Assembly (NCBI GenBank): GCA_016931225.1
Contig: JAFGFE010000005.1
Coordinates: 1-64,000 of the forward strand
Source: Candidatus Zymogenaceae bacterium
Lineage (GTDB): Bacteria > Desulfobacterota > Zymogenia > Zymogenales > Zymogenaceae
Length of the DNA stretch: 64,000 bases
Reading direction: 5' to 3'
Shown here: positions 16,746 through 38,134 of the stretch, piece by piece
How positions within the stretch are numbered: the stretch's first letter is position 1
How the letters are laid out: the number at the start of each line of letters is the position of its first letter
Translations under genes and position numbers: made by a program
Notes under the pieces: generated by a model
Seen by the model: the letters and a program-made list of their open reading frames with translations, nothing else
Database searches by the model: none
What the model was told of the DNA's origin: nothing

Positions 16746-19067
16746 ATGAAAAACGGTCGAACCAAGACTCCGACAAACAAGACACACAAACACAACGATG
16801 TGCTTTTGACCCTGTCACAATTCGCCGATGACACGGGTTTGATTTTCGGCGTCTTGAACACCGAGGGAATCCTCGTTCGTGCAAATCATTTGTGCATCGA
16901 AATTTTCAGCACAAAAGTCCCCTCCCCCGTCGGAAAAATCTTGCATCCCGATCTGATCCCCGATGAATCCGGGGCGTTATGGAAAACTGTTCTGTCCGAT
17001 AACACGGCACGGACAATACGAACATTCATACCCGCGAACGACGACGGCGGGCGAACGATCGTGTGGCACGCCGCCCCGTTTTCCCATGCTGATGATCCCA
17101 CAACGGCCCTTGTGCTGCTGGGGACGGAAATAACCGACGACTCCTCCCGTGACGACACCCCGAACGAATCCGATAAGAAGACGACCAATACCCTGCTTGG
17201 CCTATTGAAAAATATCGCCGGAATGTTTAATCACTCAGTTATCGTAACCGACACACATCAGCGAATCATCTATGTAAACGAGGCGTCGGAGAATCTGTAC
17301 GGCTACACCGCATCAGAATTTTTAGGAAAAAATCCTGATTTCCTCAACTCCGAGCCCCTCTTCGACGTCATTCAGAACCAGATATCAGATAATATCGAGT
17401 CCGGTTACGAATGGTCCGGCAACGTGCACAACAAGAGGAAAGACGGCTCGGAATTCATCTCTGATATCAAAGTATCCCCCATTACGGACGATACCGGCTC
17501 CGTCATTGCCTATATGGGCATCCAGCGCGACGCGACCCATGACCGGGAGACACGGGAGGCCCTGAGACAGAGTGAGGAAAAATACTCATCTATCCTCAAA
17601 AATATCAACGAAGGGTATTATGAGGTGGACCTCGGCGGTAATTTCACCTTTTTCAACGATTCCATGTCCGAGATTCTCGGCTACTCCCCGGAAGATATGA
17701 TCGGGATGAATAATCGTGCCTTCATGAGCGAAGGAACGGCTAAAATGGTGTTTGAAACCTTCAATCGGGTATACCGCACCAGACAAACGGTCAAGGCCTT
17801 TGACTGGGAGCTTGTCAGAAGGGACGGTGAGAGGCGATTCGTTGAAGTCTCTGTTTCCCTGCTTCATGACGGCAGGGGCCGGCCCACCGGCTTTTCCGGC
17901 ATCGCCAGGGACGTCACCGAACGAAAGCGCCTGGAAGAGCAGCTCCTTGAAGCGAAAAAAATGGAGGCCATCGGAACCCTTGCCGGCGGTATCGCCCATG
18001 ACTTCAACAACATCCTGGCGTCCATCCTCGGATTCGCCTCATATCTGAGAAGCAAGTCCTCTCCGGGTGACGATTATCACAAGGGACTTACGGTCATCGA
18101 AGAATCGGCCGTCCGCGCCTCCGGACTGACATCCCAGCTTTTGGCCTACTCGCGGAGGGGGAGCATCATGATCAAGCCGCTCAACCTCAACAGAATCCTC
18201 AATGAGGTATGCGAGCTCACTGTCAAGGGCTTTGATTCGTCAATTGTCTGTACACTGGACACCCAGGACAACCTGAAAAACATCAGGGGAGACGAATCCC
18301 AGATACATCAGGTTGTGATGAACCTGGTCATCAACGCCCGTGACGCCATGCCCGACGGCGGGACGCTCACCATCAAAACCGAGATGTTCGCCACAAAACT
18401 GCCGAATCAGATGCCTGGTTTTGTCATCAGGCCGGGAGAATATGCTCGAATAGCGGTCGGCGACTCCGGCAAGGGGATGAGCGAGGAAGTTCTGGCCAAG
18501 ATGTTCGAACCCTATTTTACGACCAAGGAGAAACAGGGTGGAGCCGGCCTGGGGATGAGTGTTGTATACGGCATAGTGAAAAATCACGGCGGATACATAC
18601 ACGCCGAAAGCACGCCGGATATCGGCACGACGATTGAGATCTACTTTCCCGCAACAAACCAGATGGAGCAGTCCATCAAGGGTCCGGCTCCTTCAGACCG
18701 GGGCGGTTCGGAAACAATCCTGATCGTGGATGATGAAAGCAGTATCGTTTCCATGCTTACGCATGTCCTGAGTAACGCAGGCTATTCGATACTGTCGACC
18801 CAGTCCGGGTGCGAGGGTCTGCGATTATACAAGGAACACATCGATGATATCGATCTGGTCATTCTGGATATCATCATGCCCGATCTCAGGGGAGACGAGG
18901 TGCTCGAACAGATTCTTGAAAACAATCCCTCGGCACGGGTTATTCTCTTCAGCGGCTACAGTGAAAAGGAAAGCTATCGACACCTGTTAAACCACGGAAC
19001 GGTCGAGTTTCTCAGCAAACCATTTTCTATAGAAAACCTCCTCGGCATGATCCGTTCGATGTTGTAG
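16746..19067 (+). CDS. Hybrid PAS histidine kinase with C-terminal receiver
   Basis: Three PAS-like sensor modules (about residues 25-135, 155-275 and 280-395), a HisKA dimerisation domain of the HDFNN type (GGIAHDFNNILA, phospho-acceptor H418), a HATPase domain with N box VINARDAMPDGG and G box GGAGLGMSVVYGIVKNHGG, and a receiver domain (ILIVDDES at about 656; phospho-Asp in LVILDIIMPD). There is no transmembrane segment, so it senses cytoplasmic signals. The start ATG has no strong ribosome site. It is followed on the same strand by a second PAS kinase; partner regulators are unknown, the orphan NtrC-type gene at 8.1-9.5 kb being one candidate. Confidence 0.92.
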   Translation: MKNGRTKTPTNKTHKHNDVLLTLSQFADDTGLIFGVLNTEGILVRANHLCIEIFSTKVPSPVGKILHPDLIPDESGALWKTVLSDNTARTIRTFIPANDDGGRTIVWHAAPFSHADDPTTALVLLGTEITDDSSRDDTPNESDKKTTNTLLGLLKNIAGMFNHSVIVTDTHQRIIYVNEASENLYGYTASEFLGKNPDFLNSEPLFDVIQNQISDNIESGYEWSGNVHNKRKDGSEFISDIKVSPITDDTGSVIAYMGIQRDATHDRETREALRQSEEKYSSILKNINEGYYEVDLGGNFTFFNDSMSEILGYSPEDMIGMNNRAFMSEGTAKMVFETFNRVYRTRQTVKAFDWELVRRDGERRFVEVSVSLLHDGRGRPTGFSGIARDVTERKRLEEQLLEAKKMEAIGTLAGGIAHDFNNILASILGFASYLRSKSSPGDDYHKGLTVIEESAVRASGLTSQLLAYSRRGSIMIKPLNLNRILNEVCELTVKGFDSSIVCTLDTQDNLKNIRGDESQIHQVVMNLVINARDAMPDGGTLTIKTEMFATKLPNQMPGFVIRPGEYARIAVGDSGKGMSEEVLAKMFEPYFTTKEKQGGAGLGMSVVYGIVKNHGGYIHAESTPDIGTTIEIYFPATNQMEQSIKGPAPSDRGGSETILIVDDESSIVSMLTHVLSNAGYSILSTQSGCEGLRLYKEHIDDIDLVILDIIMPDLRGDEVLEQILENNPSARVILFSGYSEKESYRHLLNHGTVEFLSKPFSIENLLGMIRSML

Positions 19068-19260
19068 GCGATACGCGTCTTTGAAGAAATGGAGCGGCCC
19101 CGGTCACGAAAACTCCGCCTATCCATGTCGGTTCGTCCCTGGACGGATCTTCCTAACACACGAGACAAGTGACTATCGTAATCCCGACACCCCGGCCGCA
19201 TATTTCCCGAAAAAATCAGGTCGAAAAAAAATGCTCAGCTTCACTCAAATATGATATTAT

Positions 19261-21234
19261 GTGAAGTTGAAGCTCGAGTTTATAGACTCATTCGCTTTTC
19301 GAAGCATCAAACACGACCGTTCTGCGATCGCCGGGATGAAAGAACAAAAGATGAAAGAGCGGAGTATGACTCTCCCCGTGGACCCCAAGGAACAACAGAT
19401 TCTCAACAGTATTTCAGATGTGATTCTCTCACTCGATCCGGAAATGAAAATCCGCTGGGCGAATACAGCCGCGGGTGCGCTGACCGGCGGGAAAGCCGCA
19501 GATATCGTGGGCCATCGATGCTACCATATCCTCATGAAAAATCTCGACGTCTGTGACGATTGTCCCCTCCAGCGGGTACTCAAAACGAAAAAACCACAGG
19601 AAGGAAACATCCGTTCGGCGGACGACACCGTCTGGCGGGTTCGCGGCTATCCGGTCCTCTCGGATGACGGGGAGATTGAAGGCATTATCGAGGTCAGACA
19701 GGATATCTCGAGTGATGTCAAGCACGAGGAGATTCTCAAACGCGCCTCGGATGAATGGCGAACCACCTTCGACTCCATCAGCGACATGATATCCATCGTG
19801 GACACCGGTCTTACCATCATCAAGGGAAACAACGCATTCGCCGCATCATTCGGAAAACTTCCCCGGGACCTGGTGGGCGAAAATTATCATGATCTTTTGC
19901 TCCAGTCCATCGGCACGGATATCACGTTTCCGGTGGACGAGATCAAAGCGACCATCAGTCCGCAGGTCATCGACTGGTATGAACCAAGGATTGACACGCA
20001 CTTCGAGCTTTCGGTATCGCCCATTTACAAGGACAACACGGAGATATCGGGTCACGTCATCATCCAGAAGGACGTGACTCACATGAAAAAACGGGAAGTC
20101 ATGCATCTGAAGGCGTCGGATGAATGGCGGGCCGGTTTCGATTCCCTGAATGATATCATCTGCATCATCGACGACAAACTGAAAATCCTGAAGGTAAATG
20201 AAGCATTCGCCCGCTACTTCGACGCAAAGCCGAAAAATCTCATCGGGAAAAGCTATGACACACTTCTCAGGGCATCCGGCCGTAAACCGCTCAGCCTCCC
20301 CTATGAAGATGTGGTCCGCTACAGTCGCGGCAAGGTCCTGGAATCATATGATGACAAGACCAATACTCATTTTGAAATCACCTTAACGCCCATTGTTGAG
20401 AGGAAGAAGACCTCCGCCGCCCTGGTACATATACAAAGAGACATTTCACAAAGGATACGATCCGCCGGAAAGATCAAGGAGTATTCACAACACCTGGAAA
20501 TGATGCTGAGTCAATTGACCAAGGAGCTGCATCAAGCGCCGGAAGAGATGGTCAAAAAGACGAAGCTTTCCGTCCTGAGACAGATGGCCAGCGGCGTCGG
20601 ATATGAGCTGAGACACCCCCTGGACAGGATATCAAGATCAATTTCCAGCCTTAGAAAAAAACTCGAAGGTGCCGATGATGAGACGGTGAAGAATCTCGAC
20701 ATGATATCCGAAGAGATACGAAAGGCGGAACGGGTGATGCTGGACCTCCTCTATTTCTCCCGGGCGAAGACTTCGGAAAAGCAGGTGGTGCCGATCCCTG
20801 ACCTGGTCGCAATCGTTCTCAAACGCAGACCCCCGCCGAAAAACGTGCGTGTGACGACGAAGTTCCCCTCGGGCCTTCCTTCGGCGCACGCTTCCTCCAC
20901 CCAGGTGGCGCAGGTGCTCTATAACCTGCTGCAGAACGCCTATCAATCCGGCAGCGGGGACACGCAGATATCCGTAAACATACAGGCGAAGGCACTGCAT
21001 GACTACCTCTCCATCTCTGTTGCGGATAACGGTGGGGGGATACCGGCCAGGAACCTGGCGAAAATTTACGATCCGCTGTTTACCACCCGCTCCAGGGGAA
21101 TGGGCATCGGACTGACGATCGTAAAGAATCTCGTCGAGGCCAACGGCGGAACCATCTCCGTTGAAAGCAAGGAAAAGAAGGGGACCACCGCCACATTCAC
21201 ACTGCCGATTCTTATGGATACGGGTACGGAATGA
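19261..21234 (+). CDS. PAS histidine kinase with atypical H-box (Tyr in place of His)
   Basis: Soluble kinase with three PAS modules: the first has a CDDCP cysteine pair near residues 98-102, the others start at about residues 160 and 283 with the repeated SDEWR(T/A)xFDS(I/L). A coiled coil leads to a HisKA-like helix whose H-box reads GYELRHPLDRI: Y448 occupies the position of the phospho-acceptor histidine, and H452 replaces the usual asparagine of R-N-P-L. The ATPase domain looks intact (NLLQNAYQ, DNGGGIP, GMGIGLTIVKNL). It may signal through H452, through partners, or not by histidine phosphorylation. GTG 19261 and ATG 19336 are both possible starts. A strong terminator follows. Confidence 0.88.
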   Translation: MKLKLEFIDSFAFRSIKHDRSAIAGMKEQKMKERSMTLPVDPKEQQILNSISDVILSLDPEMKIRWANTAAGALTGGKAADIVGHRCYHILMKNLDVCDDCPLQRVLKTKKPQEGNIRSADDTVWRVRGYPVLSDDGEIEGIIEVRQDISSDVKHEEILKRASDEWRTTFDSISDMISIVDTGLTIIKGNNAFAASFGKLPRDLVGENYHDLLLQSIGTDITFPVDEIKATISPQVIDWYEPRIDTHFELSVSPIYKDNTEISGHVIIQKDVTHMKKREVMHLKASDEWRAGFDSLNDIICIIDDKLKILKVNEAFARYFDAKPKNLIGKSYDTLLRASGRKPLSLPYEDVVRYSRGKVLESYDDKTNTHFEITLTPIVERKKTSAALVHIQRDISQRIRSAGKIKEYSQHLEMMLSQLTKELHQAPEEMVKKTKLSVLRQMASGVGYELRHPLDRISRSISSLRKKLEGADDETVKNLDMISEEIRKAERVMLDLLYFSRAKTSEKQVVPIPDLVAIVLKRRPPPKNVRVTTKFPSGLPSAHASSTQVAQVLYNLLQNAYQSGSGDTQISVNIQAKALHDYLSISVADNGGGIPARNLAKIYDPLFTTRSRGMGIGLTIVKNLVEANGGTISVESKEKKGTTATFTLPILMDTGTE

Positions 21235-21400: not shown

Positions 21401-22168
21401 TCATTCCACCTTCTGAATCACCTCTTCGGCAAGCTCCAGGTACGATTTGACGCCTGCACTGCTGATATCAAACAGTATCGCAGGCTTTCCCATTTTGGGC
21501 ACCTCTGACAGACGGATGTTTCTGGGTATATATACATCGAAGACCTTTTTCTTGAGATCAACTCGGAGATCCTCGGCCACCTCCCGGGATGCAGACGTGC
21601 GCATATCCACCATCGTCAAAAGAAAGCCCAAGAGCTTCAGGTTCGGATTGAATTTCTTCCCGACCACACGGGCCGCCTTTATCAAACGTCCGATCGTCTT
21701 CAGGGCGTAAAATTCGCTCTGAACCGGTACTATCAGATAATCAGCCGCCGCCATGCCGGCGACGGTAATCGCCCCCAGGGACGGGGGGCAATCAATCAGC
21801 ACGAAATCATACGCATCCTTAATCTCATCGATGATATCCCTCACCATGAAGATGTTCTCGTTAATCCTATTGAAGTATGCGGTCTCTTCCTCGTTGCTCC
21901 AGATATTCGACGGGGCGAAGCTGAGGTACTCAATTTCCGTTCCATGAATCATCTTTCGGGGACTCATCCCGTTCAACACCACGTCATAAAAACCGCCCCG
22001 CAGATCCTCCCTCTTCCGTCCAAAACTAAGCCAGAGACCGCACTGGGGATCAAGACCAACGACCAATGTCCGTCGCTCATACACAGCGAGGGAAGCACCG
22101 AGGTTAACCGCCGTCGTTGTCTTCCCCACCCCGCCTTTCTGGCTGGCAATGGTAATCACATGACTCAT
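21401..22168 (-). CDS. ParA/Soj-family ATPase at the end of the chemosensory operon
   Basis: P-loop ATPase of the ParA/MinD superfamily: deviant Walker A KGGVGKTT (residues 10-17), Walker A' region LVVGLDPQCG and Walker B VLIDCPPSLG. No ParB gene or parS-like site is near. The gene follows cheB by 30 bases on the same strand. ParA-type proteins in chemotaxis operons (ParC/PpfA) position chemoreceptor arrays or segregate cytoplasmic clusters, which is the likely role here. Length of 255 residues is normal. Confidence 0.85.
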   Translation of the reverse strand: MSHVITIASQKGGVGKTTTAVNLGASLAVYERRTLVVGLDPQCGLWLSFGRKREDLRGGFYDVVLNGMSPRKMIHGTEIEYLSFAPSNIWSNEEETAYFNRINENIFMVRDIIDEIKDAYDFVLIDCPPSLGAITVAGMAAADYLIVPVQSEFYALKTIGRLIKAARVVGKKFNPNLKLLGFLLTMVDMRTSASREVAEDLRVDLKKKVFDVYIPRNIRLSEVPKMGKPAILFDISSAGVKSYLELAEEVIQKVE

Positions 22169-22198: not shown

Positions 22199-23314
22199 TC
22201 AGGCTTTTTTCGTGACGTTTTGAAGCATCGCCGGTATCTGGTTTATGGACAGCACCGAATCCACAACACCGTTTTCTATGGCGGATTTCGGCATACCGAA
22301 AACCAGGGAGGTGCTCTCGTCCTGGGCGATGGTTGTTCCCCCCATCATTTTTATGGCCTTCAGGCCCTTGGAGCCGTCCCTGCCCATTCCGGTAAGTATA
22401 ATACCGATCGTGTTCTCCCCAAATGTGGCGGCCGCCGAATAAAACAGGGTGTCGATGGAGGGTGTGGCGCTTTTTTCATCCTCATCCACCTTCTCAAGCT
22501 CCACCTGGGGGGCCAAAAACGGCTTGACAATCTTGACATTGTAATTACCCGGAGTCACCAATACCTTTCCGCTCTCGATGACGTCCCCGTTTTTTGCCTC
22601 CGAGACTTCCAGAAACGTCACCCTGCCCAGTCGTTCCGCGAAAAACCGTGTGAAGAATCTGGGCATGTGCTGGGCGACGATGATCCCTGCGGGAAAGGTC
22701 GGCGGCAGTTTTCCGAGGATGAATTCCAGGGCCTTCGGTCCCCCCGTGGACGCGCCGATCACCACGATCTTATTCTCCGCCAGACGGGCTAGCTCCTCCT
22801 TGGTGTATCCATCCGGCTTTTTCCTGATCGGCCTGATGCTTTTGCCCGCACCTCTGGCCTTTTCTTCGGCGATGTCCGGACTGATCGCCAGGTATTTATC
22901 CATGTCCACGTGATATGCGGCCCGTATCTTCGTCGTCAGCTCCTGCTTGAGGAACTTGAAGTTGAGGATCATGGATCCCTTCTTCGGCTTGGGAATAAAA
23001 TCCACTGCGCCCATCTCCAAGGCGCGAAAGGTAATGTTCGCTCCCTCGTTCGTCACCCCGCTGAGCATAATAACCGGGACCTTATACTCCCGGGCGAGTA
23101 TCTTCAGCGAGGACAGTCCGTCCATGCGGGGCATGATGACGTCCATTGTCACCACATCCGGCTTCAGGTCGAGATACTTCTGTATCGCATCCTCGCCGTT
23201 CACGGCGACTCCCACCACCTCGATGTCCGCTTCTTCCTCGAGGACATTCGTGACGGCCCGTCTGATAACAGGGGAATCATCGACTATCAGTGTTTTTATT
23301 CTACTACCCGCCAA
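22199..23314 (-). CDS. cheB: Chemotaxis protein CheB, intact methylesterase
   Basis: Receiver domain (D58 in VVTMDVIMPRMDG) joined to a CheB methylesterase domain with the full triad: S189 in IGASTGGP, H216 in AQHMPRFF and D313 in GMGRDG. It removes methyl groups from, or deamidates, MCP receptors, opposing CheR. It sits between cheA and parA. This is the only one of three CheB-type proteins in the operon with a complete active site. Confidence 0.95.
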   Translation of the reverse strand: MAGSRIKTLIVDDSPVIRRAVTNVLEEEADIEVVGVAVNGEDAIQKYLDLKPDVVTMDVIMPRMDGLSSLKILAREYKVPVIMLSGVTNEGANITFRALEMGAVDFIPKPKKGSMILNFKFLKQELTTKIRAAYHVDMDKYLAISPDIAEEKARGAGKSIRPIRKKPDGYTKEELARLAENKIVVIGASTGGPKALEFILGKLPPTFPAGIIVAQHMPRFFTRFFAERLGRVTFLEVSEAKNGDVIESGKVLVTPGNYNVKIVKPFLAPQVELEKVDEDEKSATPSIDTLFYSAAATFGENTIGIILTGMGRDGSKGLKAIKMMGGTTIAQDESTSLVFGMPKSAIENGVVDSVLSINQIPAMLQNVTKKA

Positions 23315-23350: not shown

Positions 23351-26300
23351 TCATGAGACCGGGGGAGTGTCGTTTTCCGTTTCGATTCTTTTCCTGACAG
23401 ATCGCTTCTGATACCGCCGCTCCGCCTGTTTTTTCCTGAGCTCCCGCTCCTTGGCGATCGCCAGGTTTACCAGTTCTATCACATCAATGATAAGAGATAT
23501 CGATCCATCCCCCATAATCGACGCGCCGGATACTCCCCTGGTTCCGGTCAGATATTCCTCGAGGGACTTGATAACGATATCCTCTTCACCCAGGAGCCTG
23601 TCCACTATGAGACCCACTTCCCTCCCCTCGGCGCTTAATATTACCACATATACCTTCTTTTGTGCATCCTCTTCACTTTCCCATCCGGTATTCATGCGAA
23701 ATATCTCTGAAAGATGCAGAAGCGGCAATACCTTGTCTCGTATCCTGAGGACCTGATGCCCTTCGATGGTATCAATCTCGTCGATGTGCACCTGGACCGT
23801 TTCAATAACCGATGACAGTGGAATGGAAAATACCCGCTGTTGTATCTCAACGATCAGGGCCTGGATAATCGCCAGGGTCAGCGGCAGCTTGATATTAAAC
23901 GATGCTCCCTTCCCCAACTCCGTTATCACGTCGATGCTCCCCTTCAGCTTGTCGACATTTCGTTTCACGATATCAAGCCCGACGCCCCGACCGGAAACAT
24001 GGCTGACCTTCTCGGCCAGGGAAACACCCGGCTTGAACAGATAATTGATCATGTCCCGCTCGGTCAGGCGTTCCGCCTCGAGGGCCGTAACCTCACCCGA
24101 AGACTCCATTCGCGACTTGATCTTGCTGAAGTCCATCCCTCTCCCGTCATCGGATACTTCGATGATCACCTGATTGCCCTGATGATACGCGGAGATATTC
24201 AATGTCCCTTGCTCGGGCTTGCCCATTTTTCGTCGTTCCCCGGGGGATTCGAAACCGTGATCGATGGAATTTCTGATAATGTGAGTAAGGGGGTCGCCGA
24301 TTTCCTCTATGACCGATTTGTCCAGCTCCGTTTCCTTACCGGTGATAATCAGGTTCACATCCTTGTTCATCTTGTTGGCCAGGTCACGCACCATCCGGGG
24401 AAATCGGGCGAACAACTGGTTTATACTGACCATCCTGACACGCATGACGCCTTCCTGGAGTTCATTGGAAACGCGGCTCAGCTCCGTTGTGGACTCCTCG
24501 AATTCAAGGGCGAGCTGTCTGAGGTTTATCATTTCCTGCTTGTCGAGCTTCTTCAATTCCAGGATTTCCCGATACATATCCCTGAACAAGTTTACCAACT
24601 GGGAAAAGCTTGCGCGGTTGACGACCAGCTCGCCCACCAGGTTCATGATATTATCCACCCGCTCGGTCTCCACCCTGAGGGTCTTTCGTGAATAGGGGAT
24701 CTCCGTTCCGGGCGGCTCTTCGTCGCCCCCTCCCGGGGGGACAGAACCTCCCGGCGGCGTCTCATCCGAGATTCTCCGGGAGGCGACCGGCGTCGCGGCC
24801 TCCCCCGGCTTCTCCATGACGGAAATATCCGGCGTTTCGGCCCGTATATCCTCCGCCTTCGGCCTTTCCCGGGGCTCCCGGGTCGGCACCGACGGTATTT
24901 CGACCGCCTCCGGGATCTTCCCCGCGGATCGGGAAAGCGTGCCGATCTCATCTTCCAATTCGGTATAGAAGCCGCCCAGAGTCTCAGACAACGATGAGAT
25001 CGATTCGGGATTATGTCCCGCTTCGGTGAGAATTTTCATCTCCTTCTCAAGAATACTCAGGATGGAGTCGTATCCCATGAATTTCGCCGACGACCGGAGG
25101 CTCTCCACCGCTTTCTTGTATATTTCCACCGATTCCTCGATATCACTTCCGTTCCGAATATTGGTGAGGCACACATCGATGGTCTCCATATATTGCTCGG
25201 CGGCGGAGAGGAATATCTGCAAGAGCTCCCGGTCTTCATCGGTCAGTTCAATCACCTCGGCCGTTTCTTCTTCCGATGGCTCGGTGAAAATCTTCGAGCG
25301 TCTCAGCGCGGATTTCAGACCTGACAATTCCTGCACCAGGGTGGTGACGGATTCAGGGCTCATCCCGTGGCGATCCTTCAGGTACCGTTCCAGAAGGGTG
25401 ACGATTTGGTTGAGTTGATCGACGATGGAGAAATATTCCATGTAATTCGCCGAACGTCTGAGCTTCAGCACAATCTCCAGCAATTCCTGTATTAAATCGT
25501 CATCGGCCTCCTTGTCCTCGATATCCTGAAGGCGCACATCCAGAATGGAAAAGAGGTCAACCGTAGCGGAGAGAAAAATATCTATCAGCTCCTCATCATA
25601 CCCCACGGCGAGATCCTCTTTGACCTCGCCTCTGATCGCCGCTATATGCCCTTCCGACTCCCCCTGTACCGTGGATACGGATGGGGCCTGTGTCTGAGCG
25701 GAAGCGGCCTCCCGCTCTTCCTGGAAAAAGGCGATGATATCCGAGGCAAGATTCGCGCTGATCCCTTCAATTTTGGAGAGATCCTCCTCATTCGCCCTGG
25801 ACAGCGCATCCCACGTCAAATAACCGGCTTCGTAGATCTGTCGGGCTTTTGCGGCGCCCACCCCGGGTATTATGGTGAATTCCTTGATCGCCTCATCGGC
25901 GGACAACGGTGTTTTGCCGTCGGTGCCGGAGATCTCCGTTGTGTTCCCAATGACCGGCTCTGTTTCGTTGACATATTCCCGGATAATGTCAAGGTTGTTG
26001 TAGAAACTGAGCACCTCGTTATCGGTGAGGCTCTCCCCCTCCTCAAGAAACAACATAATGGATTTACTGATATTGCTGAGACTCGTATCAAGCTCGTCGT
26101 ACCCGAAATACTCAATGGACGACCGAAAACTCTCCACAAGCTTCAGAAATCGCTCCAGTTCTTCGGTGGTTTTTTTCTCTTCCAACACCTTGAGAGCGTT
26201 TTCCAGCTCATCCATATGCTGCTCGAGGACCTCGGAAATCTCGTTGTCGAACACGTCCTCGCTTGGGGGGATATGGGCCTTCGAACGGGTGCGTACCGTA

Positions 26301-26887
26301 TCATCCACATCGCCGTATTTCTCACCGAGATCGGGAAACTCTTCATCCAGATCTAGATCCATCTCTATCGTGTCTTCCGGCTCTTCCGGAGGTTCCTCTG
26401 CGGCCTTCGTCGGTGCCGTGTCTTCCGGTTTTCTCGATGAAAACACTCCCTCGGTCACCTCGTCCGATGTCTCTTCATCCAGAGTGTCGTTCTCCGGCAA
26501 TTCGACGTCCCCATTAAGCAAACGATCAAGGGCGACGGAGGCGGATTCCACACTTGAGAGCTCCTCTTTACTCTCGGAGAGATCCTGCAGGAGAGACGTG
26601 ACCGTGTCCATACCCATAAAGAGAACATCGATTATATCCTTGGTGGCCGTCAGAGACCCCTGCCGGAGCCGTTCGAGTATGCTCTCCATCTTGTGCAGGA
26701 ATTCCCCGGTTTTCTCCAGGCCGATATAATCGGCTGATCCCTTGATGGAGTGAACGGCCCGAAAAAGCTGGTTGAGATATTCCTGGTTCTTCGGGTCGTC
26801 CACCAGCCGATTGAGGTTTTCCTCCAGCTCGGATAAGTGCTCGTTGCTTTCTATGATGAATTCCTTCAACAGTTCTTCATCGTACAT
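23351..26887 (-). CDS. cheA: Giant CheA histidine kinase with several Hpt-like repeats and a HhH module
   Basis: 1178 residues, far longer than a usual CheA (about 650). Residues 1-110 form a true Hpt domain (H46 in AVHSIKGSADY). Three further Hpt-like helical modules (near residues 245, 470 and 590) keep the scaffold but have E, L and E in place of the histidine. Residues about 340-388 form a helix-hairpin-helix (IPGVGAAKARQIYEAG and IEGISANLASDIIAFF). From about 729 come the P3 dimerisation helix, the kinase domain (N box RNSIDHGFE, SDDGRGMD, GRGVGLDIVK) and a CheW-like P5 domain. Acidic, proline-rich linkers connect the parts. It phosphorylates the operon's receivers. Confidence 0.93.
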   Translation of the reverse strand: MYDEELLKEFIIESNEHLSELEENLNRLVDDPKNQEYLNQLFRAVHSIKGSADYIGLEKTGEFLHKMESILERLRQGSLTATKDIIDVLFMGMDTVTSLLQDLSESKEELSSVESASVALDRLLNGDVELPENDTLDEETSDEVTEGVFSSRKPEDTAPTKAAEEPPEEPEDTIEMDLDLDEEFPDLGEKYGDVDDTVRTRSKAHIPPSEDVFDNEISEVLEQHMDELENALKVLEEKKTTEELERFLKLVESFRSSIEYFGYDELDTSLSNISKSIMLFLEEGESLTDNEVLSFYNNLDIIREYVNETEPVIGNTTEISGTDGKTPLSADEAIKEFTIIPGVGAAKARQIYEAGYLTWDALSRANEEDLSKIEGISANLASDIIAFFQEEREAASAQTQAPSVSTVQGESEGHIAAIRGEVKEDLAVGYDEELIDIFLSATVDLFSILDVRLQDIEDKEADDDLIQELLEIVLKLRRSANYMEYFSIVDQLNQIVTLLERYLKDRHGMSPESVTTLVQELSGLKSALRRSKIFTEPSEEETAEVIELTDEDRELLQIFLSAAEQYMETIDVCLTNIRNGSDIEESVEIYKKAVESLRSSAKFMGYDSILSILEKEMKILTEAGHNPESISSLSETLGGFYTELEDEIGTLSRSAGKIPEAVEIPSVPTREPRERPKAEDIRAETPDISVMEKPGEAATPVASRRISDETPPGGSVPPGGGDEEPPGTEIPYSRKTLRVETERVDNIMNLVGELVVNRASFSQLVNLFRDMYREILELKKLDKQEMINLRQLALEFEESTTELSRVSNELQEGVMRVRMVSINQLFARFPRMVRDLANKMNKDVNLIITGKETELDKSVIEEIGDPLTHIIRNSIDHGFESPGERRKMGKPEQGTLNISAYHQGNQVIIEVSDDGRGMDFSKIKSRMESSGEVTALEAERLTERDMINYLFKPGVSLAEKVSHVSGRGVGLDIVKRNVDKLKGSIDVITELGKGASFNIKLPLTLAIIQALIVEIQQRVFSIPLSSVIETVQVHIDEIDTIEGHQVLRIRDKVLPLLHLSEIFRMNTGWESEEDAQKKVYVVILSAEGREVGLIVDRLLGEEDIVIKSLEEYLTGTRGVSGASIMGDGSISLIIDVIELVNLAIAKERELRKKQAERRYQKRSVRKRIETENDTPPVS

Positions 26888-27005: not shown

Positions 27006-27767
27006 TCAAACCGCGTTATAGAGAATGTGAATGCCTATCAATAATAACAGAAATATAAAAATTTCCCTCAAAATCCGGTCATCTATTCGACCGGCAAGCC
27101 TCGGCCCGATCTGACCGCCGATTATTACGCCCGGTATGCTCCACAGAAGCACGGAGGTATCGAACCTGCCGCCGAACGCCAAGTGAGAGACCACGCCGAT
27201 TACGGCGACGACGGCCATCACCAGAACCGCGGTCCCCACCGCCACTTCCATCGAGAGCTTGAAACGCTTGACCATTATCGGCACGATGAAATCGCCCACC
27301 CCCACCGAAAGAAGTCCGCTGACAAAAGAAGACACCAACGGAACGATGCCGAACCGCACGGCTTCCCGTATCTCCACCGTGGTGCGGCGCTCGTCCGTGA
27401 ACCAATCGTCTCCCGAAATGAAGAACAGCGCGATACCGATAGTCACAAGACCCAGGGCCACCTCGAGGATGTGTGACGGGAGCCGCTGGCTGACGAATGA
27501 TCCCAGCACCACCATCGGTACGGCCGTCCCGATGCACAGAAGCGCCAGCGGCACATCGACCCTCTTTATCCACAGGTACCGAACCGTACCGCTGCCGATT
27601 CCCGCGACCTGTATCGCCAGGGCCGTCGGTACCGCCACGTCCGGCGGAAGCCTCAGGACCAGCATTAAAAACGGCATCCATAATACTCCGCCGCCGATCC
27701 CGGTAATGGTCACCACCGTGGCGATGGCAATCCCTACGAAAAACGAGAGAAAGACCAGTGATTCCAT
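27006..27767 (-). CDS. TauE/SafE-family membrane transporter, pair 1
   Basis: About eight hydrophobic segments, with the family's GIGGGVLWMP near the N-terminus and the mirrored second-half motif SGLLSVGVGDFIVP. The family exports sulfite, sulfonates or other small anions. It lies 4 bases downstream of a HAMP-only membrane protein, and the same pair recurs at 28411-30074. A substrate-linked sensing role with the HAMP protein is inference. Confidence 0.88.
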   Translation of the reverse strand: MESLVFLSFFVGIAIATVVTITGIGGGVLWMPFLMLVLRLPPDVAVPTALAIQVAGIGSGTVRYLWIKRVDVPLALLCIGTAVPMVVLGSFVSQRLPSHILEVALGLVTIGIALFFISGDDWFTDERRTTVEIREAVRFGIVPLVSSFVSGLLSVGVGDFIVPIMVKRFKLSMEVAVGTAVLVMAVVAVIGVVSHLAFGGRFDTSVLLWSIPGVIIGGQIGPRLAGRIDDRILREIFIFLLLLIGIHILYNAV

Positions 27768-27770
27768 GAA

Positions 27771-28403
27771 TCACAAATTCCATTTTCCTTCCGGCTCCAC
27801 GGAAAACAGGGTAAACTCTTCCGTCATTTCATGTAACTGCACAAGGCTCCGCCTGAGATGTTCCGTCTCCCGATATGCCGGGGCCTCTGTACCGTTCGGA
27901 TCTATCAAGCACGCCTGTATATCGTCCAGGGAATCCAAGCCGGAGGAGGCGAAAATCCGGACATGGCCCACCACCTCGCCGAAATCGCTGATGAGATCGT
28001 TAATGAATTCCCCCATCCTGCCGATTTCATCGTTGGTATAGACCGGCATCGCCTCCTTCAAGTCGCCCGTGGAGATGCGGTCGCCGACCCGGAACATACG
28101 CCTCAACGGCAGGGTGATCTTCTTGACAAAGATGACCAGCACCACGCTTGTAATAAGCACCTGTATGGCAAGAAGCAGCATAACCTTGTTCCTGAGGCGG
28201 ACCAACGGCTCTATCGCCTCGGCTTCCGTGATGCTTCCCGCAGTCAGAAGAGCCGCATTATCCAATATCATTCCCCGCAGGTTCTCATCGCCAACCTCCC
28301 GCATGAACTCGATGCCCAGGGTGAGTACGGTCAGAACGATGATCATGAGATATATGATCATCCGTCTGCCGATGGTAATCCGTTCTTTCTTCCCCGGCTC
28401 CAT
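27771..28403 (-). CDS. HAMP-domain membrane protein without output domain, pair 1
   Basis: 210 residues: a membrane segment (MIIYLMIIVLTVLTLGIEFM), a short exterior helix of about 45 residues, a second membrane segment (VMLLLAIQVLITSVVLVIFV), a HAMP domain (LPLRRMFRVGDRISTGDL through PVYTNDEIGRMG) and a helical tail. It has no MCP tip, kinase or cyclase domain. It is clearly paralogous to the gene at 29235, sharing PVYTxDEIGxxGxxINDxxxDFxEV. It lies between two TauE/SafE genes and may couple transporter state to the CheA array. Confidence 0.8.
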   Translation of the reverse strand: MEPGKKERITIGRRMIIYLMIIVLTVLTLGIEFMREVGDENLRGMILDNAALLTAGSITEAEAIEPLVRLRNKVMLLLAIQVLITSVVLVIFVKKITLPLRRMFRVGDRISTGDLKEAMPVYTNDEIGRMGEFINDLISDFGEVVGHVRIFASSGLDSLDDIQACLIDPNGTEAPAYRETEHLRRSLVQLHEMTEEFTLFSVEPEGKWNL

Positions 28404-28410
28404 ACGCTCC

Positions 28411-29223
28411 CTAATACATCATTTCTATAATAATACTGAGGTTGTCAGCGATCATCTTGGCGCCTGTGAGCAGCACAAACATGGAAAACAGTATCTTGAG
28501 AACCGCCTCCGGAGCGAACCTGTTTAAAATCGGCCCAAGCTGCCCGCCGCACAACACGCCGGTCATGGTAAATATCGCCACATCCCAACGTATCTGGCCC
28601 TCCCAGATATTGATTGATGTGGCCACGTATCCGGCAATGGCCTCCACCATCACGGTGGTCGCCACCGCCCGGTGCACGTTGAGTTTGTAGACACGCTCCA
28701 GAACCGGGAAGATGGTCTCCGCCGTACCCACCGAGGAGAGTCCGCTGGAGAGCCCTCCCAAAAACGGAACCCACGCGAAGGGATATATCTCCTCGGTTCC
28801 CAAACCCTCCCGATTTCCATATTTCTTTTCCGCCATGGAGACAAACGTCCATATGGCGCACCCCACGACGATCAGCCCGAAAAACACCTTGAGGATCGCC
28901 TCGTTGGTCACCAGGGCCAGATGAAGACCGATAATCACGCCCGGTATGGTGAGCATGATCATCGGAAAGGCTATATTGAATTCGATTTGACGCTGTCTGA
29001 CGTATCCCACCAGCGCGGAGCTCATGCCGACGAGCTCCGTGACCATGCCGGTGCCGACGCTCTCGGGCACGGTCATGCCTAGAAAATATACAAAAATGGG
29101 CAGAAAGATAATCCCGCCGCCGAATCCGCTTCCAGTGGCGGTCATCGCCACCAGGATGGAAATCGGAAACATAAACCAGTTTGCCGACGACTGGGCGAGA
29201 AATTCCATCACATGCTCCATCAT
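28411..29223 (-). CDS. TauE/SafE-family membrane transporter, pair 2
   Basis: 270 residues with an ordinary TauE/SafE layout: N-terminal GSGFGGGIIFLPIF, central charged loop, and second-half LGGLSSGLSSVGTAETIFPVL. It is distantly similar to the protein at 27006. It is separated by 7 and 11 bases from HAMP genes on both sides, so it is co-transcribed with them. Confidence 0.88.
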   Translation of the reverse strand: MMEHVMEFLAQSSANWFMFPISILVAMTATGSGFGGGIIFLPIFVYFLGMTVPESVGTGMVTELVGMSSALVGYVRQRQIEFNIAFPMIMLTIPGVIIGLHLALVTNEAILKVFFGLIVVGCAIWTFVSMAEKKYGNREGLGTEEIYPFAWVPFLGGLSSGLSSVGTAETIFPVLERVYKLNVHRAVATTVMVEAIAGYVATSINIWEGQIRWDVAIFTMTGVLCGGQLGPILNRFAPEAVLKILFSMFVLLTGAKMIADNLSIIIEMMY

Positions 29224-29234
29224 CCATGCCCATA

Positions 29235-30059
29235 TTACAGTTTGTCAAGATCGATCTGGTAGAAACTAAAGGATTCCACCAGCGATTTGAGCTCTCGGAT
29301 GTCCTTGTAGAGGACATTGAGCTGCTGTTGAATTTCATCACTGATTTGCTTTTCCTTGAGTACTTCCACCCGGTTATGAATAACATCGGTAGCGTCCGCC
29401 GCGGATAGGCTGATCTTTCCAACCATCAATAAAACTTCCTGAAAATCCGCGGTTATATCATTAATGATGCCACCCAGCTGACCTATCTCGTCTTTCGTAT
29501 ACACCGGCACCGTCTTTGCGAGATTTCCCCGGGAAATCTCCTTCGCCGTCTGTACCATCTCGTCCAGGGGACCGGCCACGTCCTTGATAAAGAAAAACAG
29601 GGTTAAGAAGACCGCCGCCAGCACTATTCCCAAAACAATGATCATACGTATCTGCAGGTGATTCAGCGGTTCATATATCGACTCGAAATTAAAACCCGCC
29701 ACAGCATCCAAAGCTGTGTGTTCCTCGGCCTGAACCATGATGATCTCGGTGATCTGATCGGTCAGCTTCGGCTCGCCCACCTCGATAATCAACTCCACCG
29801 TAATGGCGATACAGACGAACACCACCAGCAGGAAATATATCAACAGCTTTTTCTTCAGATCGCTGAAAATGGCGCTTTGACGCTTCTCTTTCGCGGATTT
29901 CCTCCGTTCACTTTTCCTGCGTTCCACGCCGAAGCGACGCTCACCCTTTTTTTGCACATCCCGCCAGTTATGTTTCCTTCTCTCTCCTTTTCTCTGTTTT
30001 TCCCTCCGACGATCAACACCGTTCCAGGATGAGCCGCCCTCGCCATTTATTTCGTTCAT
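29235..30059 (-). CDS. HAMP-domain membrane protein with basic N-terminal tail, pair 2
   Basis: Two membrane segments (LLIYFLLVVFVCIAITVEL and MIIVLGIVLAAVFLTLFFF) enclose a short exterior loop; then a HAMP domain (GPLDEMVQTAKEISRGNL through PVYTKDEIGQLG) and a helical tail without an output domain. Unlike its paralogue at 27771, it carries a cytoplasmic tail of about 65 residues rich in repeated ERRK/RRKSERRKS blocks. ATG 30074 is open, but GGAAGG lies six bases before ATG 30059. It is part of the duplicated HAMP-TauE module. Confidence 0.8.
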   Translation of the reverse strand: MNEINGEGGSSWNGVDRRREKQRKGERRKHNWRDVQKKGERRFGVERRKSERRKSAKEKRQSAIFSDLKKKLLIYFLLVVFVCIAITVELIIEVGEPKLTDQITEIIMVQAEEHTALDAVAGFNFESIYEPLNHLQIRMIIVLGIVLAAVFLTLFFFIKDVAGPLDEMVQTAKEISRGNLAKTVPVYTKDEIGQLGGIINDITADFQEVLLMVGKISLSAADATDVIHNRVEVLKEKQISDEIQQQLNVLYKDIRELKSLVESFSFYQIDLDKL

Positions 30060-30133
30060 CTGATGCCTTCCCATGAATTCAAAGGTAATATCAAGATGCT
30101 AATCTCCGCATAATTGATACCCAGCAACACCTT

Positions 30134-30508
30134 TCATTCGTTCAGGACCCGGACCACGGTGGCCTTGAGCTCCTCGGGGGTAAAGGGCTTCAAGATCACC
30201 GCTCTGATCCCCATTTTTTCCGCCGCCTCTTCAAGAAAATGCTTTTCCTCCTCCTGTCGGAGGGTCAGCAGTATTACGCGGGCGTCCGGATTATCCTTGA
30301 GGATCGTTTCCGCTGCGGTAAAGCCGTCGGTATTTCGCATGGTCACATCCATCGTGACCAGGTCCGGCTGAAGCCGGCGAAACAACTCCACGGCTTCATC
30401 GCCGTCCTTTGCCTCTCCCACCACTTCGATATCGTCGTCCAACAGCGCCTCTTTAATACGGTTTCGCATGAAGGTCGAGTCATCGACAACTAACACGGTC
30501 CTGGGCAT
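30134..30508 (-). CDS. cheY: CheY-like single-domain response regulator
   Basis: 124 residues, only a receiver: VLVVDDST acidic pair, phospho-Asp in LVTMDVTM, LLTL threonine and the KPF lysine are all present. It is the most canonical CheY of the operon and follows the MCP gene. Its downstream target (motor, pilus or other) is unknown because no such genes are near. Confidence 0.9.
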   Translation of the reverse strand: MPRTVLVVDDSTFMRNRIKEALLDDDIEVVGEAKDGDEAVELFRRLQPDLVTMDVTMRNTDGFTAAETILKDNPDARVILLTLRQEEEKHFLEEAAEKMGIRAVILKPFTPEELKATVVRVLNE

Positions 30509-30725: not shown

Positions 30726-33071
30726 CTACTTCTCCCGCGCGATCTCGTCCGCCGTGCGGAACCGGAACTGGCTCATAAGATCAACATTGGTACCGGCCAT
30801 TCGCTGGATCGTCTCGGCGTTTTCCCGGACGATACCGGCTCCCTCAACCACCTCCGAGGTGTTCTGAACGCCTTCGATAATACTCTCGCTGATGCGGGCT
30901 GAACGGCTCGCGACATCCTGAATGACCTCCTCGAAGGCCTGGGTTCTCCGTCCCTGCTCGGTGGTCAACTCCACGATTTCTTGGGCCAGAGACGCCAGGT
31001 CGTCCATGGAGCGAAGCACCTCCTCGATGCTCTTGAGCTGCAGGGTCATGGCCTCGGCGACCGTTCCAGCCATTGCCGTGGCCTCCTCGCCGGATTTCAC
31101 GCCGAACTCAAGGCTCTCCGTCGCCTCACGGGCCAGGTTTGCATTCTGCCGGGCGATACCTGTGGTTTCCTCGGCATTCTTGAGAATCCGGTCCAGCTCC
31201 ATGGCCACATCTCCGGCGGCCCGGGTACCGTCTTCCACGGCGCGATGCGCTGCTCGGATCAGGTCGGTAATCTCCTTGGTGGCCTCACCGGAACGCTCGG
31301 CCAGTTTCCTGACCTCGTCGGCGACCACCGCAAAACCCTTCCCATGCTCGCCGGCTCTCGCCGCCTCAATGGCGGCGTTGAGGGCCAGGAGGTTGGTTTG
31401 CTCGGCGATGTCGTTGATGACCTCGACGATCTCAAACACCTGCTCGGTGGATTCGGAGATCGATCGAATACCTACCTCGTTTCTTTGCACCGCTTCCTGG
31501 CCGGCTCTGGCGATACTCATCACGTTCTCGGCACGCTCGGCGGCGCCCGCGGCGTTTGTCGTCACGGTACCGGCAATCTCCAGGGCCCTTCTCAGCTCGG
31601 CGGTGGCCTCAAGACCTCCCGCAGAAACGCCTTTCGCCTGCTCCACCAGCTCGTTGATGGCCGACGCCATCTCGTTGACCGACGAAGATGTCTGGGCGGC
31701 GTTTGTTGCCTGGGCGTTGGCTCGCTCCTGGACGGACAGGGCTGTTTGGGCCATTTCGGAAATCAGGTTCAAGGCCGTTCGGGACGCCTCCACCTCACTC
31801 TCGGTAATATCGGAGATCTCGTTCATTTTTCCCCGGAGCTCCGTCATAATGCTTGCATTTCTCTCAGCAATAGGCCCCGCTTCCTGGGAGAGGTTTCGCA
31901 CCGTTCCGGCGCCCTGGGCGACCCGGGCAACAATGCCCTCCAGTCGGGCCACGAACTCATTAAAGTTCTGTGCCAAAACCCCCAGTTCATCACTTGTCGT
32001 TACCTCCAGTCGCTGTGTCAGGTCAGCGCCGGCGCCGGCCAGCGCCTCCATCTGGTCGGAGTACCGGGTGATGGGACCTGAGATGTTTCGGGCAAAGAAA
32101 TACGCCACGACTCCCACCAGGACCGCCATGAGAAGCGTTATCACCGTGGCGTATATTCGCGAGGCGGACAGGGTACGGTAGGCTTCCGCAACGTCAGATT
32201 CCGAGACAATGAGCATGTTGTACTGGGGAACGGGGATGGCCACGCCGAATACGTCCGTACCCCGGTAGTCCTCCCATCTGCCGAAAGTACGCTCCTCCTC
32301 TCTGCCGCCCACGTATTCCTCTACGGTAGCGGCCAGCTCGGCGCCTCGCTTGTAGCTTTCCAGATCAGAGATGTTGATCTCGAAGATCGCCGTCTCTTTC
32401 ACCAGTCCCTCACGTATCAGGTCAGCAACGAAGAGAGACTCAGAGGCCATGTACCCGGTATCCAGGGCTGCGATATAGGTTTCACCGGTGTCACCGAATC
32501 TCGTGTGAGTGAGGAGATCCGTGAAATAATTCGGTTCGATAAGCTGTACGAACACACCGTACTTTACCCCTCCCTTTATAACCGGGCCGGACAGAGCGAT
32601 CAATATATGACCATGGATGGGGTCCTCATAATATTTGACCACAACATTATCCGGGTCATTATTGCCAATCGCCTCCGAGAACCAGTCCTCATTGATAAAA
32701 CTGTTCCCGATGTTTTCAGGAAACGTGCTGGCCTTGCAGACGCCCGAGTTGTCGATATACATGATATCGTGAAGAAATCGGGTTCGCTCCGCCTTCAGGG
32801 ACTCAAAGAGCGTCACCGTGATGAAGAACTCTCCGGTCACCAGCGGTTGCTCGAATTCCGCGTAACTGGCGAAGGTTCGATGGTCACTGCGACGCTCTGC
32901 AAAAAACTCGGTGATGATACCGCCCGCTGCATTCGAGAGGGACGTCAACTCACTCTCGATTAGCGTGTTGGTATCCGATTTGACTCGCTGATACGCCATA
33001 ATCGATATCGTCAGCATCGGAACAAGGGCGATGACGATCATTAGGACGATCAGTTTTAACCGAATAGACAT
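30726..33071 (-). CDS. Methyl-accepting chemotaxis protein with dCache-like sensor
   Basis: 781 residues. TM1 ([19 protein letters not shown]), an exterior region of about 270 residues compatible with a double Cache domain, TM2 ([17 protein letters not shown]), a HAMP domain, and a long cytoplasmic coiled coil with the conserved hairpin tip [22 protein letters not shown]-rich helices provide methylation sites for the CheR and CheB in the same operon. It is the only MCP in the window. The ligand cannot be predicted. Confidence 0.93.
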
Positions 33072-33141: not shown

Positions 33142-33633
33142 TTATTCAACACCAGTCAACTGCTCTCTTTCTCGATCGGTGAGTATCTTGGAAAAATCCA
33201 GAAGAATGATCAGCCGGTCCTCCAGGCGGCTTACGCCGTAGATATACTCGCTCTCCACCCCGGCGGTTACCATTTCAGGCGCACTCTGAATGGACTCCGT
33301 ATGAACGCTCATGACCTTGGAGACCGAATCAACGATAAAACCGGTCACCTTTTCCTCCAACTCGATGATCATAATCCGGGTGGCTTTGTCAGTCGGAGTA
33401 ATTTCCAGATCCAGACGCCGGCGCAGGTCCACCACCGGCACCACCTTTCCGCGAAGGTTTATGACGCCCTCCAGAAACGCCGGTGTGTTCGGTACCTCGG
33501 TTATGGTAGTCGGCCGGATGATCTCCTGGACCAGAAGGATGTCAACCCCGAATTCCTCGTTACTTAAGAAAAATGTAACAATCTGCATATCCCCCGCTCT
33601 TTCGAGCCCCTCGGCCCGTTTTTCTTCGGCCAT
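33142..33633 (-). CDS. cheW: CheW adaptor protein
   Basis: 163 residues with the CheW fold: FFLSNEEFGVDILLVQEI, VINLRGKVVPVVDLRRRL and the VSKVMSV region are typical. It links the MCP to CheA. It lies 13 bases after cheR and 70 bases before the MCP gene. Confidence 0.93.
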   Translation of the reverse strand: MAEEKRAEGLERAGDMQIVTFFLSNEEFGVDILLVQEIIRPTTITEVPNTPAFLEGVINLRGKVVPVVDLRRRLDLEITPTDKATRIMIIELEEKVTGFIVDSVSKVMSVHTESIQSAPEMVTAGVESEYIYGVSRLEDRLIILLDFSKILTDREREQLTGVE

Positions 33634-33646
33634 GTTCCATCACCTC

Positions 33647-34486
33647 CTATGTCTTTCGTTTTTTATATACAAATGTGTTCATTATCTTCATCGGCTTAAA
33701 TATCGTGGTGTGCCGCATCAGCGATTCGGTGGATGCTGTAAAAAGATATCCATTCTCATCCAGTACGTGGGAAATCCCCCTGACGACTTCCGGCACCCGC
33801 TGATCCGAAAAATACATCAGGACGTTTCGGCAAAACACCACATCAAAATGAAAATCGCGCCGCGCCTCCCATGATGCCACATCGTTGAGATTGATCGGGA
33901 TGAATTGTATCATCTCCCTCAGCTCCGGGATTACCTCGAACCCGCCGTTTTTCGTTGATACATAGGTCCCCATAAATCGAGAGGGGAGGTGCCGTATCGC
34001 CCATTGACTATATTTGCCGATTCGGGCGGAATCCAGAGCGATCTCGTTTATATCCGAGGCGATAATGGTGACCTTCATATCGGGAAGATCCGGCCGCTCA
34101 CGTTTGAGCTCCTGGCAAAGAATGGCCAAGGTATAGGCTTCCTCGCCGGTGGAACATCCCGCACTCCAGATACGTATCGTTCTCGTGCCCACCCTCTGAG
34201 CGATTTCCGGAAGCACCCGATCCTTCAGGGCGGCAAGCTGCTCCTCCTCCCGAAAAAAAAAGGTTTCGCTGATTTTCATCTTGTCAATCAGATTAACCAG
34301 CTCAATATCTTTATACCGGTGCTTGACCGCCAGATAGTAGGTAAAGGGGGTCTCAAAACCGAGCTCTGAAATCCGTTCGGCAAGCTTTCTGGAAAAAATC
34401 CCCAGCTGCTCATCTTTCAGTTTCAAACCGGTTATCTCCTGGACATAGTCCCTGACCATTCTCACACCTTCAATGTCCAAGATCAT
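33647..34486 (-). CDS. cheR: CheR chemoreceptor methyltransferase
   Basis: 279 residues: an N-terminal helical domain and a SAM-binding domain with IWSAGCSTGEEAYTLAIL, FRNVLMYF-type VVFCRNVLMYF and the final YLFTASTESL. It methylates MCP glutamates. Its start overlaps the stop of the upstream receiver gene by 17 bases. Confidence 0.94.
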   Translation of the reverse strand: MILDIEGVRMVRDYVQEITGLKLKDEQLGIFSRKLAERISELGFETPFTYYLAVKHRYKDIELVNLIDKMKISETFFFREEEQLAALKDRVLPEIAQRVGTRTIRIWSAGCSTGEEAYTLAILCQELKRERPDLPDMKVTIIASDINEIALDSARIGKYSQWAIRHLPSRFMGTYVSTKNGGFEVIPELREMIQFIPINLNDVASWEARRDFHFDVVFCRNVLMYFSDQRVPEVVRGISHVLDENGYLFTASTESLMRHTTIFKPMKIMNTFVYKKRKT

Positions 34487-34853
34487 CTCCCAACAGCATC
34501 TTCATATGTGTAACCAGTTTTTTCGGCTCCGTCGGCTTCGCCAGGTGAATGTTGGCGCCCGCCTTGAGGCCCTTTTCCCGGTGTTTTTTTATTTCCTCTT
34601 CCACCGTGATGATTATTATGGGAATTACGTCATACCCGTCTATCCGCCTGATTCTCTCGATAAACTCATATCCGTCCATCACCGGCATGAAAATATCGGT
34701 GATAACGCCTTTGTAGCGATTGTTCCGGGCCATCTCAAGGGCCTCTGCGCCGTTTTCCGCGGTATCCACCACGAATCCCTCCGATTGAAAAATCACCCGC
34801 AGAGAATCACGGATCACCTTGGAATCGTCCACTACCAGAAGTTCAGGATACAT
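34470..34853 (-). CDS. Single-domain response regulator
   Basis: 127-residue receiver with VVDDSKVIRDSL, phospho-Asp in GVITDIFMPVMDG and KPTEPKKL. The helix-3/4 insert KGLKAGANIHL is normal for CheY-like proteins. It overlaps the cheR start, so the two are probably translated together. Whether it competes with CheY for phosphate from CheA or has its own target is unknown. Confidence 0.9.
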   Translation of the reverse strand: MYPELLVVDDSKVIRDSLRVIFQSEGFVVDTAENGAEALEMARNNRYKGVITDIFMPVMDGYEFIERIRRIDGYDVIPIIIITVEEEIKKHREKGLKAGANIHLAKPTEPKKLVTHMKMLLGDDLGH

Positions 34854-37759: not shown

Positions 37760-38134
37760 TCATCCGAGTACCTCGCGAACTAACTCCTGAAGACTCTCCA
37801 TCACAAACGGTTTTTCGAGACAGCCGAACACTCCCCCCCTGTCCAATAACGTTTTTTCCTTTTCACTGATATATTCATAGAGGAGTACAACCTTGAGCTC
37901 CGGATGGAGTTCCCGCAGTTTGAAAAAAAAATTCATTCCCCCCATACCGGTGAGTGCGATATCCGAGAGAATAAGGTCAAATCCCCGGTCATTAATTCTT
38001 TCCAGGGCGTTTTCCGCGCTGTTCACGGTTTCTATCGTAATTTCCGGATAATCCTCGAGGATTTTATTTTTCAGGTAATCGGCGTATGCGCTTTCCTCAT
38101 GTACTATCAGAATTCCGTTGTTGGTGGCATGCAT
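37760..38134 (-). CDS. Atypical receiver protein, first gene of the chemosensory operon
   Basis: 124 residues of the CheY fold. The phospho-acceptor Asp (D58, LILSDIALTG) and the EKPF lysine are present, but the acidic pair is HE (H12, E13 in LIVHEES) and the conserved threonine/serine is a tyrosine (LLYEY). Mg2+ binding and phosphorylation may be weakened. It is the first gene after the sigma-54-type promoter; the ribosome site is weak. Confidence 0.8.
   Translation of the reverse strand: MHATNNGILIVHEESAYADYLKNKILEDYPEITIETVNSAENALERINDRGFDLILSDIALTGMGGMNFFFKLRELHPELKVVLLYEYISEKEKTLLDRGGVFGCLEKPFVMESLQELVREVLG

Follow-up and report, generated by a model that had tools for sequence, protein, structure and literature searches.

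In Vibrio, the histidine kinase CheA binds ParP through a special region, CheA-LID, and ParP binds the ParA-like ATPase ParC encoded in the chemotaxis operon; CheA-LID is described as present only in CheAs having ParC/ParP (PMC5706961). The same source describes the Rhodobacter PpfA/TlpT system, where a ParA-like ATPase positions a chemosensory cluster (PMC5706961). A third group, ChpA and other multi-Hpt CheAs, carries several Hpt domains, some without the phospho-acceptor histidine, whose function the 2023 survey of CheA calls undetermined (PMC10782961). Here we describe a CheA encoded in a 64,000-nucleotide stretch of Candidatus Zymogenaceae bacterium (assembly GCA_016931225.1, contig JAFGFE010000005.1, positions 1 to 64,000; hereafter the window), in which three Hpt-like segments lacking that histidine (dead Hpts: dHpt1, dHpt2 and dHpt3) and a helix-hairpin-helix (HhH) are inserted between the true Hpt and the kinase core, and whose operon ends with a ParA-type ATPase.

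By analogy, the Vibrio CheA-LID/ParP/ParC system would be the nearest working parallel, here without ParP beside ParA. Vibrio-type ParC/ParP operons have the gene order CheA-CheB-ParA, and so does the window, with short gaps. Unlike in Vibrio, no ParP lies next to ParA (21401-22168), and the special CheA region is a dHpt1-HhH-dHpt arrangement also found as a separate protein; since ParP is missing there, CheA may carry the adaptor itself. In Rhodobacter the partner of the ATPase is the N-terminus of a cytoplasmic receptor, whereas the receptor here looks membrane-bound and the candidate ParA partner is CheA or a free-standing module. Compared with ChpA and its like, the window CheA lacks a receiver domain and any further Hpt with histidine, places an HhH between dead Hpts and is linked to ParA.

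We propose, as a reading about equally likely to be right or wrong, that the inserted block (dHpt1-HhH-dHpt2 plus dHpt3) serves as a protein-protein adaptor that joins the chemosensory array to its own dedicated ParA. The block would touch ParA, and this link would position the array, or pass it on, by means of a ParA gradient or a pole anchor; the HhH would offer a surface for binding protein, not DNA.

The inserted block of CheA

The protein has the parts of a CheA, namely a P1 Hpt with its phospho-histidine (H46, in HSIKGS) and the P3, P4 and P5 domains (Pfam; Table 1). The first-pass annotation, a model's reading of the letters alone, had placed a true Hpt with H46 here, which the Pfam match bears out, and its coordinates and quoted motifs agree with the 1178-residue open reading frame. 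The dead Hpts and the HhH occupy residues ~110-730, with ESFRSSIEYFGY at 252, GVGAAKARQIYEAG at 342, LKLRRSANYMEY at 474 and ESLRSSAKFMGY at 595. Alignments pair H46 with E252, L474 and E595, just as the annotation had claimed for three Hpt-like segments with E, L and E at the phospho-histidine position. The first Hpt and the kinase core should function like those of any other CheA, whereas the dead Hpts should remain unphosphorylated.

Searched singly against Pfam Hpt, dHpt3 alone gives a match (E 0.02, below the cut-off), and dHpt1 and dHpt2 give none. The profile search that the annotation had proposed is clear for the HhH and weak for Hpt, and it is profile-profile comparison (hhalign) of family alignments built from relatives with 13 true Hpts that supports Hpt ancestry (Table 1). 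Column-shuffled controls reached the observed score in 0 of 100 cases for each of six sets. The closest control was reversed dHpt1 (24.4 versus the observed 35.1), and an alignment of dHpt1 restricted to the window's class reached no more than 47%, which makes dHpt1 the weakest of the three. At the sequence level, Hpt ancestry is therefore supported strongly for dHpt2 and dHpt3 and moderately for dHpt1. Besides, a profile of the module (A3) recovers the true Hpt of the same protein at E 1.9e-9 and dHpt3 at 1.1e-11, and together with the profile-profile comparison this rules out that the segments are unrelated coiled-coil linkers, the alternative that the annotation had named.

The structure prediction that it had also proposed helps in part. 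A single-sequence AlphaFold model of residues 204-660 shows four helices per segment, at low overall confidence (pLDDT 59, pTM 0.30), and a Foldseek search with this model returned nothing at E 0.001 or below. The P1 domain of Thermotoga CheA (1tqg) ranked 30, behind other helical bundles, so that the model lends little support to an Hpt fold. Among the dHpt copies read, 31 of 32 lack the phospho-acceptor histidine. The dHpt2 of one free-standing protein (G001, L024 8254-9486) has a histidine at that position, without the K-G of the motif.

Another explanation, which we regard as doubtful, is that the dead Hpts may be receiver docks that replace P2 and hold CheY- or CheB-type receivers near H46, unphosphorylated, with the HhH as a spacer or further dock. 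No P2 or CheY-binding model matched the whole window CheA up to E 10 (Pfam), several receiver domains are encoded in the operon, dHpt3 is conserved around the lost histidine (RSSxxFMGY / RSSSxYMDY), and a dHpt3-like domain occurs in a CheA without ParA (G039, considered below), all of which suits docking. In most dHpt copies, however, the Hpt motif HxxKG is altered at its K-G, which contributes to the receiver interface, and the free-standing module adjoins a CheB-like protein that has lost the receiver Asp, leaving a receiver dock no obvious client. P2 itself is optional in CheAs; the 2023 survey gives it as missing in nearly 52% (PMC10782961).

The HhH is real. Its HHH_5 match (residues 338-389) scores 43.5 bits against a cut-off of 27, a single-sequence AlphaFold model of residues 320-400 reaches fair confidence (pLDDT 80.5), and Foldseek aligns this model with the N-terminal domains of RAD51/RadA and with NusA, DisA and Hef, none at E 0.001 or below. 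The annotation was thus right to see an HhH between Hpt-like segments. Run against control loci, the profile of the module's HhH scores best on NusA-type C-terminal repeats (E 1.2e-18 for L052, which is NusA by NCBIfam); among the control loci searched these repeats are the closest HhH by sequence, although they sit in another host protein and no common function is implied.

These features bear on a further idea, in which the HhH is a DNA-binding element that anchors the array to the nucleoid, either by itself or together with ParA, after the manner of FrzCD in Myxococcus, whose arrays are described as located on the nucleoid (PMC5716589). The idea draws on the canonical GVG/GIG hairpin in 6 of 7 HhH copies of the window's class, and on Hef and RadA, which act on DNA, being among the Foldseek matches. 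Against it, the net charge of the HhH is -3 in the window (-3 to +3 across the class copies), the seven copies in Desulfomonilaceae, the second lineage described below, lack GxG and carry charges of -7 to 0, and the eighth CheA there (G405) has no HhH; of the four Desulfomonilaceae CheAs scanned, three match HHH_5 at 31.9, 27.8 and 26.3 bits and that of G405 not at all. The NusA-type repeats have a protein partner (SuhB, N) in two listed PDB entries, and the linked receptor is probably in the membrane, because it carries HAMP and gives a dCache-like match of 41.2 bits against a cut-off of 45. We therefore think a DNA tether very unlikely, DNA binding by the HhH finding little support in these sequences. 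The annotation's suggestion of a binding scaffold for receivers or DNA stays compatible with the data as far as a scaffold goes; for the partner, the genomes suggest the ParA ATPase instead of DNA.

The ParA linkage and its recurrence

A ParA profile run on 390 genomes of the phylum gave nine matches at 337 bits or more and placed all others at 316 bits or less. The nine comprise two each from the window genome (G000) and G002 and one each from G001, G003, G311, G385 and G079. From the 30 ParA loci fetched (L133-L162), 7 lay above this gap and 23 below. Above it, a CheA or free-standing module stood beside ParA in six of seven, with neither at L138 (G003); below it, ParB stood beside ParA in 23 of 23. 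In a tree of 26 of 29 loci (L110, L115 and L131 yielded no open reading frame with the motif in the search made for it, and L131, G003:C409, is thus unplaced), the module-linked and Soj types fall on opposite sides of a branch with 100/99 support. By these sequence comparisons, the module-linked ParA is distinct from chromosomal Soj.

The window's class was sampled by four genomes (G000, G001, G002 and G003), and all four encode a free-standing dHpt1-HhH-dHpt2 protein; in the window genome this is a second place, beside another ParA. Three of them also have the CheA form; it was not found in G001, which is 89% complete. Module identity between genera is 43-51%. The order CheA-CheB-ParA occurs in G000 and G002, and the order CheB-like protein, module, ParA in G000, G001 and G002, where ParA is the gene next to the module. 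In G003 the contig ends after the free-standing module, and a ParA that groups with the module-linked ones lies on another contig. The gene upstream of the free-standing module is CheB-like in 4/4; the three copies compared, those other than G000's, have lost the receiver Asp as well as the catalytic Ser and His. Two similar tandem dHpt1 copies lie at a contig break in the window genome (L071 8715-9317 with L029 7718-8785); two of its contigs overlap there by 85 bases at the free-standing module, which adds the second dHpt1 and the upstream CheB-like frame, and the tandem could be an assembly effect. Two loci from a genome scan with back-translated peptides were set aside, as only the kinase part matched.

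Outside the class, a module search of 395 phylum genomes made one further genome stand out, G385; the number of genomes with the module is to be taken as a minimum, no spanning match being listed for G311, whose HhH and dHpts are degenerate. In the order of G385, 8 of 18 genomes encode a CheA of the form Hpt-dHpt1-(HhH)-dHpt3-kinase, with the HhH in seven of the eight. ParA adjoins this CheA in all eight (in G402 over two contigs) and CheB then follows. Exactly those eight have a ParA of this type, at 395 bits or more; it occurs in none of the remaining ten Desulfomonilaceae genomes, several of which are incomplete. The 18 genomes are all related and therefore do not count as 18 independent cases. 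In 8/8 the ParA-linked CheB retains the receiver Asp but no longer has the catalytic Ser and His. One of these genomes, G403, belongs to Desulfomonile tiedjei DSM 6799, with whose plasmid it shares a stretch of 3500 bases at 100%; in NCBI terms the order is accordingly Desulfomonilales and the phylum Thermodesulfobacteriota. The CheA of G405 (L100 6380-9994) has lost the HhH and kept dHpt1, dHpt3 and the ParA linkage.

A third case, G079, has a CheA in two open reading frames, followed by ParA and by a DUF4388-receiver-CheB protein. It encodes a single true Hpt along with other Hpt-like segments, of which four reach E 0.001 or lower against one or more dHpt profiles. The CheA (L163 8509-12998) consists of an N-terminal protein with several Hpt-like segments and a C-terminal kinase protein, either a true split or a sequence error.

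Weighing the adaptor reading

That the same block is usually encoded beside its own ParA suggests signalling machinery tied to ParA, and in every case seen this ParA is accompanied by extra dHpts, carried either by a CheA or by a free protein. The adaptor proposal starts from observations: the domains, the loss of phospho-acceptors, the recurrence as a separate protein, the linkage to one ParA lineage and the catalytic loss in most neighbouring CheB-like proteins.

Several points weigh against it. The HhH is absent from G405 and G079, both of which have the ParA, and is thus not constant. In the CheA tree, G039 groups with the ParA-linked CheAs (with long branches, hence to be read with caution), and its CheA has one dHpt3-like domain, yet the 14 kb read contain no ParA. 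On its own, dHpt3 is therefore not bound to the presence of ParA. The CheA of G061 has a third His-less Hpt-like segment, seen by eye, and no ParA in its 5.9-kb contig. No ParP-like gene adjoins ParA in the window, and the linkage may merely mark an inherited chemosensory operon. Two stricter ideas were dropped, namely that dead Hpts are confined to ParA-linked CheAs, which G039 and G061 contradict, and that an HhH always accompanies ParA, contradicted by G405 and G079.

An inherited operon is also part of an explanation that we find improbable, in which the block is a neutral or structural spacer made of decayed Hpt duplications and a captured HhH, and its linkage to ParA reflects operon history. 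In its favour, CheAs with several Hpts of which some are His-less have been described, their function being unestablished according to the 2023 survey (PMC10782961), dHpt1 is divergent and G405 has lost the HhH; yet the block persists in two deep lineages and, in free-standing form, in 4/4 genomes of the class, at the identity between genera given above.

The adaptor reading can be widened, tentatively and as a possibility we would not count on, to take in the free-standing module: dead chemotaxis parts (the His-less Hpts with the HhH, and the dead CheB-like proteins) would serve as cargo adaptor for the dedicated ParA, linking arrays when inside CheA, while the stand-alone set of pseudo-CheB, dHpt-HhH-dHpt and ParA would work free of phosphorylation and position some other cargo. 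To our knowledge, the recognition of non-DNA cargo by ParA/MinD-type ATPases is understood for few adaptors only. Found within CheA as well as in stand-alone form, and in either form paired with its own ParA, such a module offers a direct route to what ParA recognises, and the adaptor reading gives His-less Hpt domains a testable role. Since Desulfomonile tiedjei DSM 6799, which has a public strain record, has the layout, the question is not limited to uncultured genomes.

In the open-access literature searched, no description was found of an HhH in a CheA or of the ParA-linked module, and the main text of the 2023 survey of CheA architectures contains neither "hairpin" nor "HHH" (PMC10782961). 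The first-pass annotation had called the arrangement unusual; within the literature searched this holds for the HhH, and the adaptor-like module within a CheA/ParA arrangement likewise looks new there, whereas His-less Hpts in CheA had already been published (PMC10782961).

The window operon

The genes around cheA, all on the same strand, are listed with the domains of CheA in Table 1.

Table 1. Features of the CheA protein and of its operon (window positions; residue limits refer to CheA)
Feature	Position	Strand	Basis or remark
CheA histidine kinase with inserted module, 1178 aa	23351..26887	-	open reading frame, Pfam, motif positions
Hpt (P1), residues 5-103, phospho-acceptor H46	26579..26875	-	Pfam Hpt 8.2e-22, two stretches counted
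dHpt1, residues ~213-310, E252 replaces His, approximate limits	25958..26251	-	hhalign 82%, E 1.1e-5 (14 sequences); no Pfam Hpt match
Helix-hairpin-helix domain, residues 338-389	25721..25876	-	HHH_5 4.5e-11; AlphaFold; Foldseek
dHpt2, residues ~430-531, L474 replaces His, approximate limits	25295..25600	-	hhalign 97%, E 9.3e-12 (7 sequences)
dHpt3, residues ~549-653, E595 replaces His, approximate limits	24929..25243	-	hhalign 95%, E 2.5e-8 (11 sequences); Pfam Hpt E 0.02 alone
P3 dimerisation domain, residues 735-817	24437..24685	-	Pfam H-kinase_dim 9.6e-17
P4 kinase domain, residues 865-1004	23876..24295	-	Pfam HATPase_c 9.3e-15
P5 CheW-like domain, residues 1009-1141	23465..23863	-	Pfam CheW 4.1e-25
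ParA-type ATPase, last operon gene	21401..22168	-	Pfam AAA_31 3e-44; outside chromosomal Soj group in tree
CheB, directly downstream of CheA	22199..23314	-	receiver Asp and catalytic Ser/His/Asp present
TauE-type transporter	27006-27767	-	between MCP and CheA
HAMP protein	27771-28403	-	between MCP and CheA
TauE-type transporter	28411-29223	-	between MCP and CheA
HAMP protein	29235-30074	-	between MCP and CheA
CheY-like receiver	30134-30508	-	between MCP and CheA
MCP with HAMP	30726-33071	-	sub-cut-off dCache match
CheW	33142-33633	-	
CheR	33647-34486	-	
Receiver	34470-34853	-	
Receiver-DUF4388-CheB-like protein	34897-36699	-	two receiver stretches
CheB-like	36715-37749	-	
Receiver	37760-38134	-	

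While the CheB next to CheA is catalytically intact, two other CheB-like proteins of the operon are altered. In the one at 36715-37749 the catalytic His is replaced by Asp, and in the receiver-DUF4388-CheB-like protein Ser is replaced by Ala and His by Tyr. The two TauE-type transporters alternate with the two HAMP proteins (27006-30074), and the same four-gene order was seen by eye in G002. Past ParA, the next large open reading frame (19261-21234) encodes a PAS histidine kinase on the other strand and is not parP. The region beyond the operon end (16746-21234) holds two PAS-type histidine kinases, one of them with a receiver, on the opposite strand.

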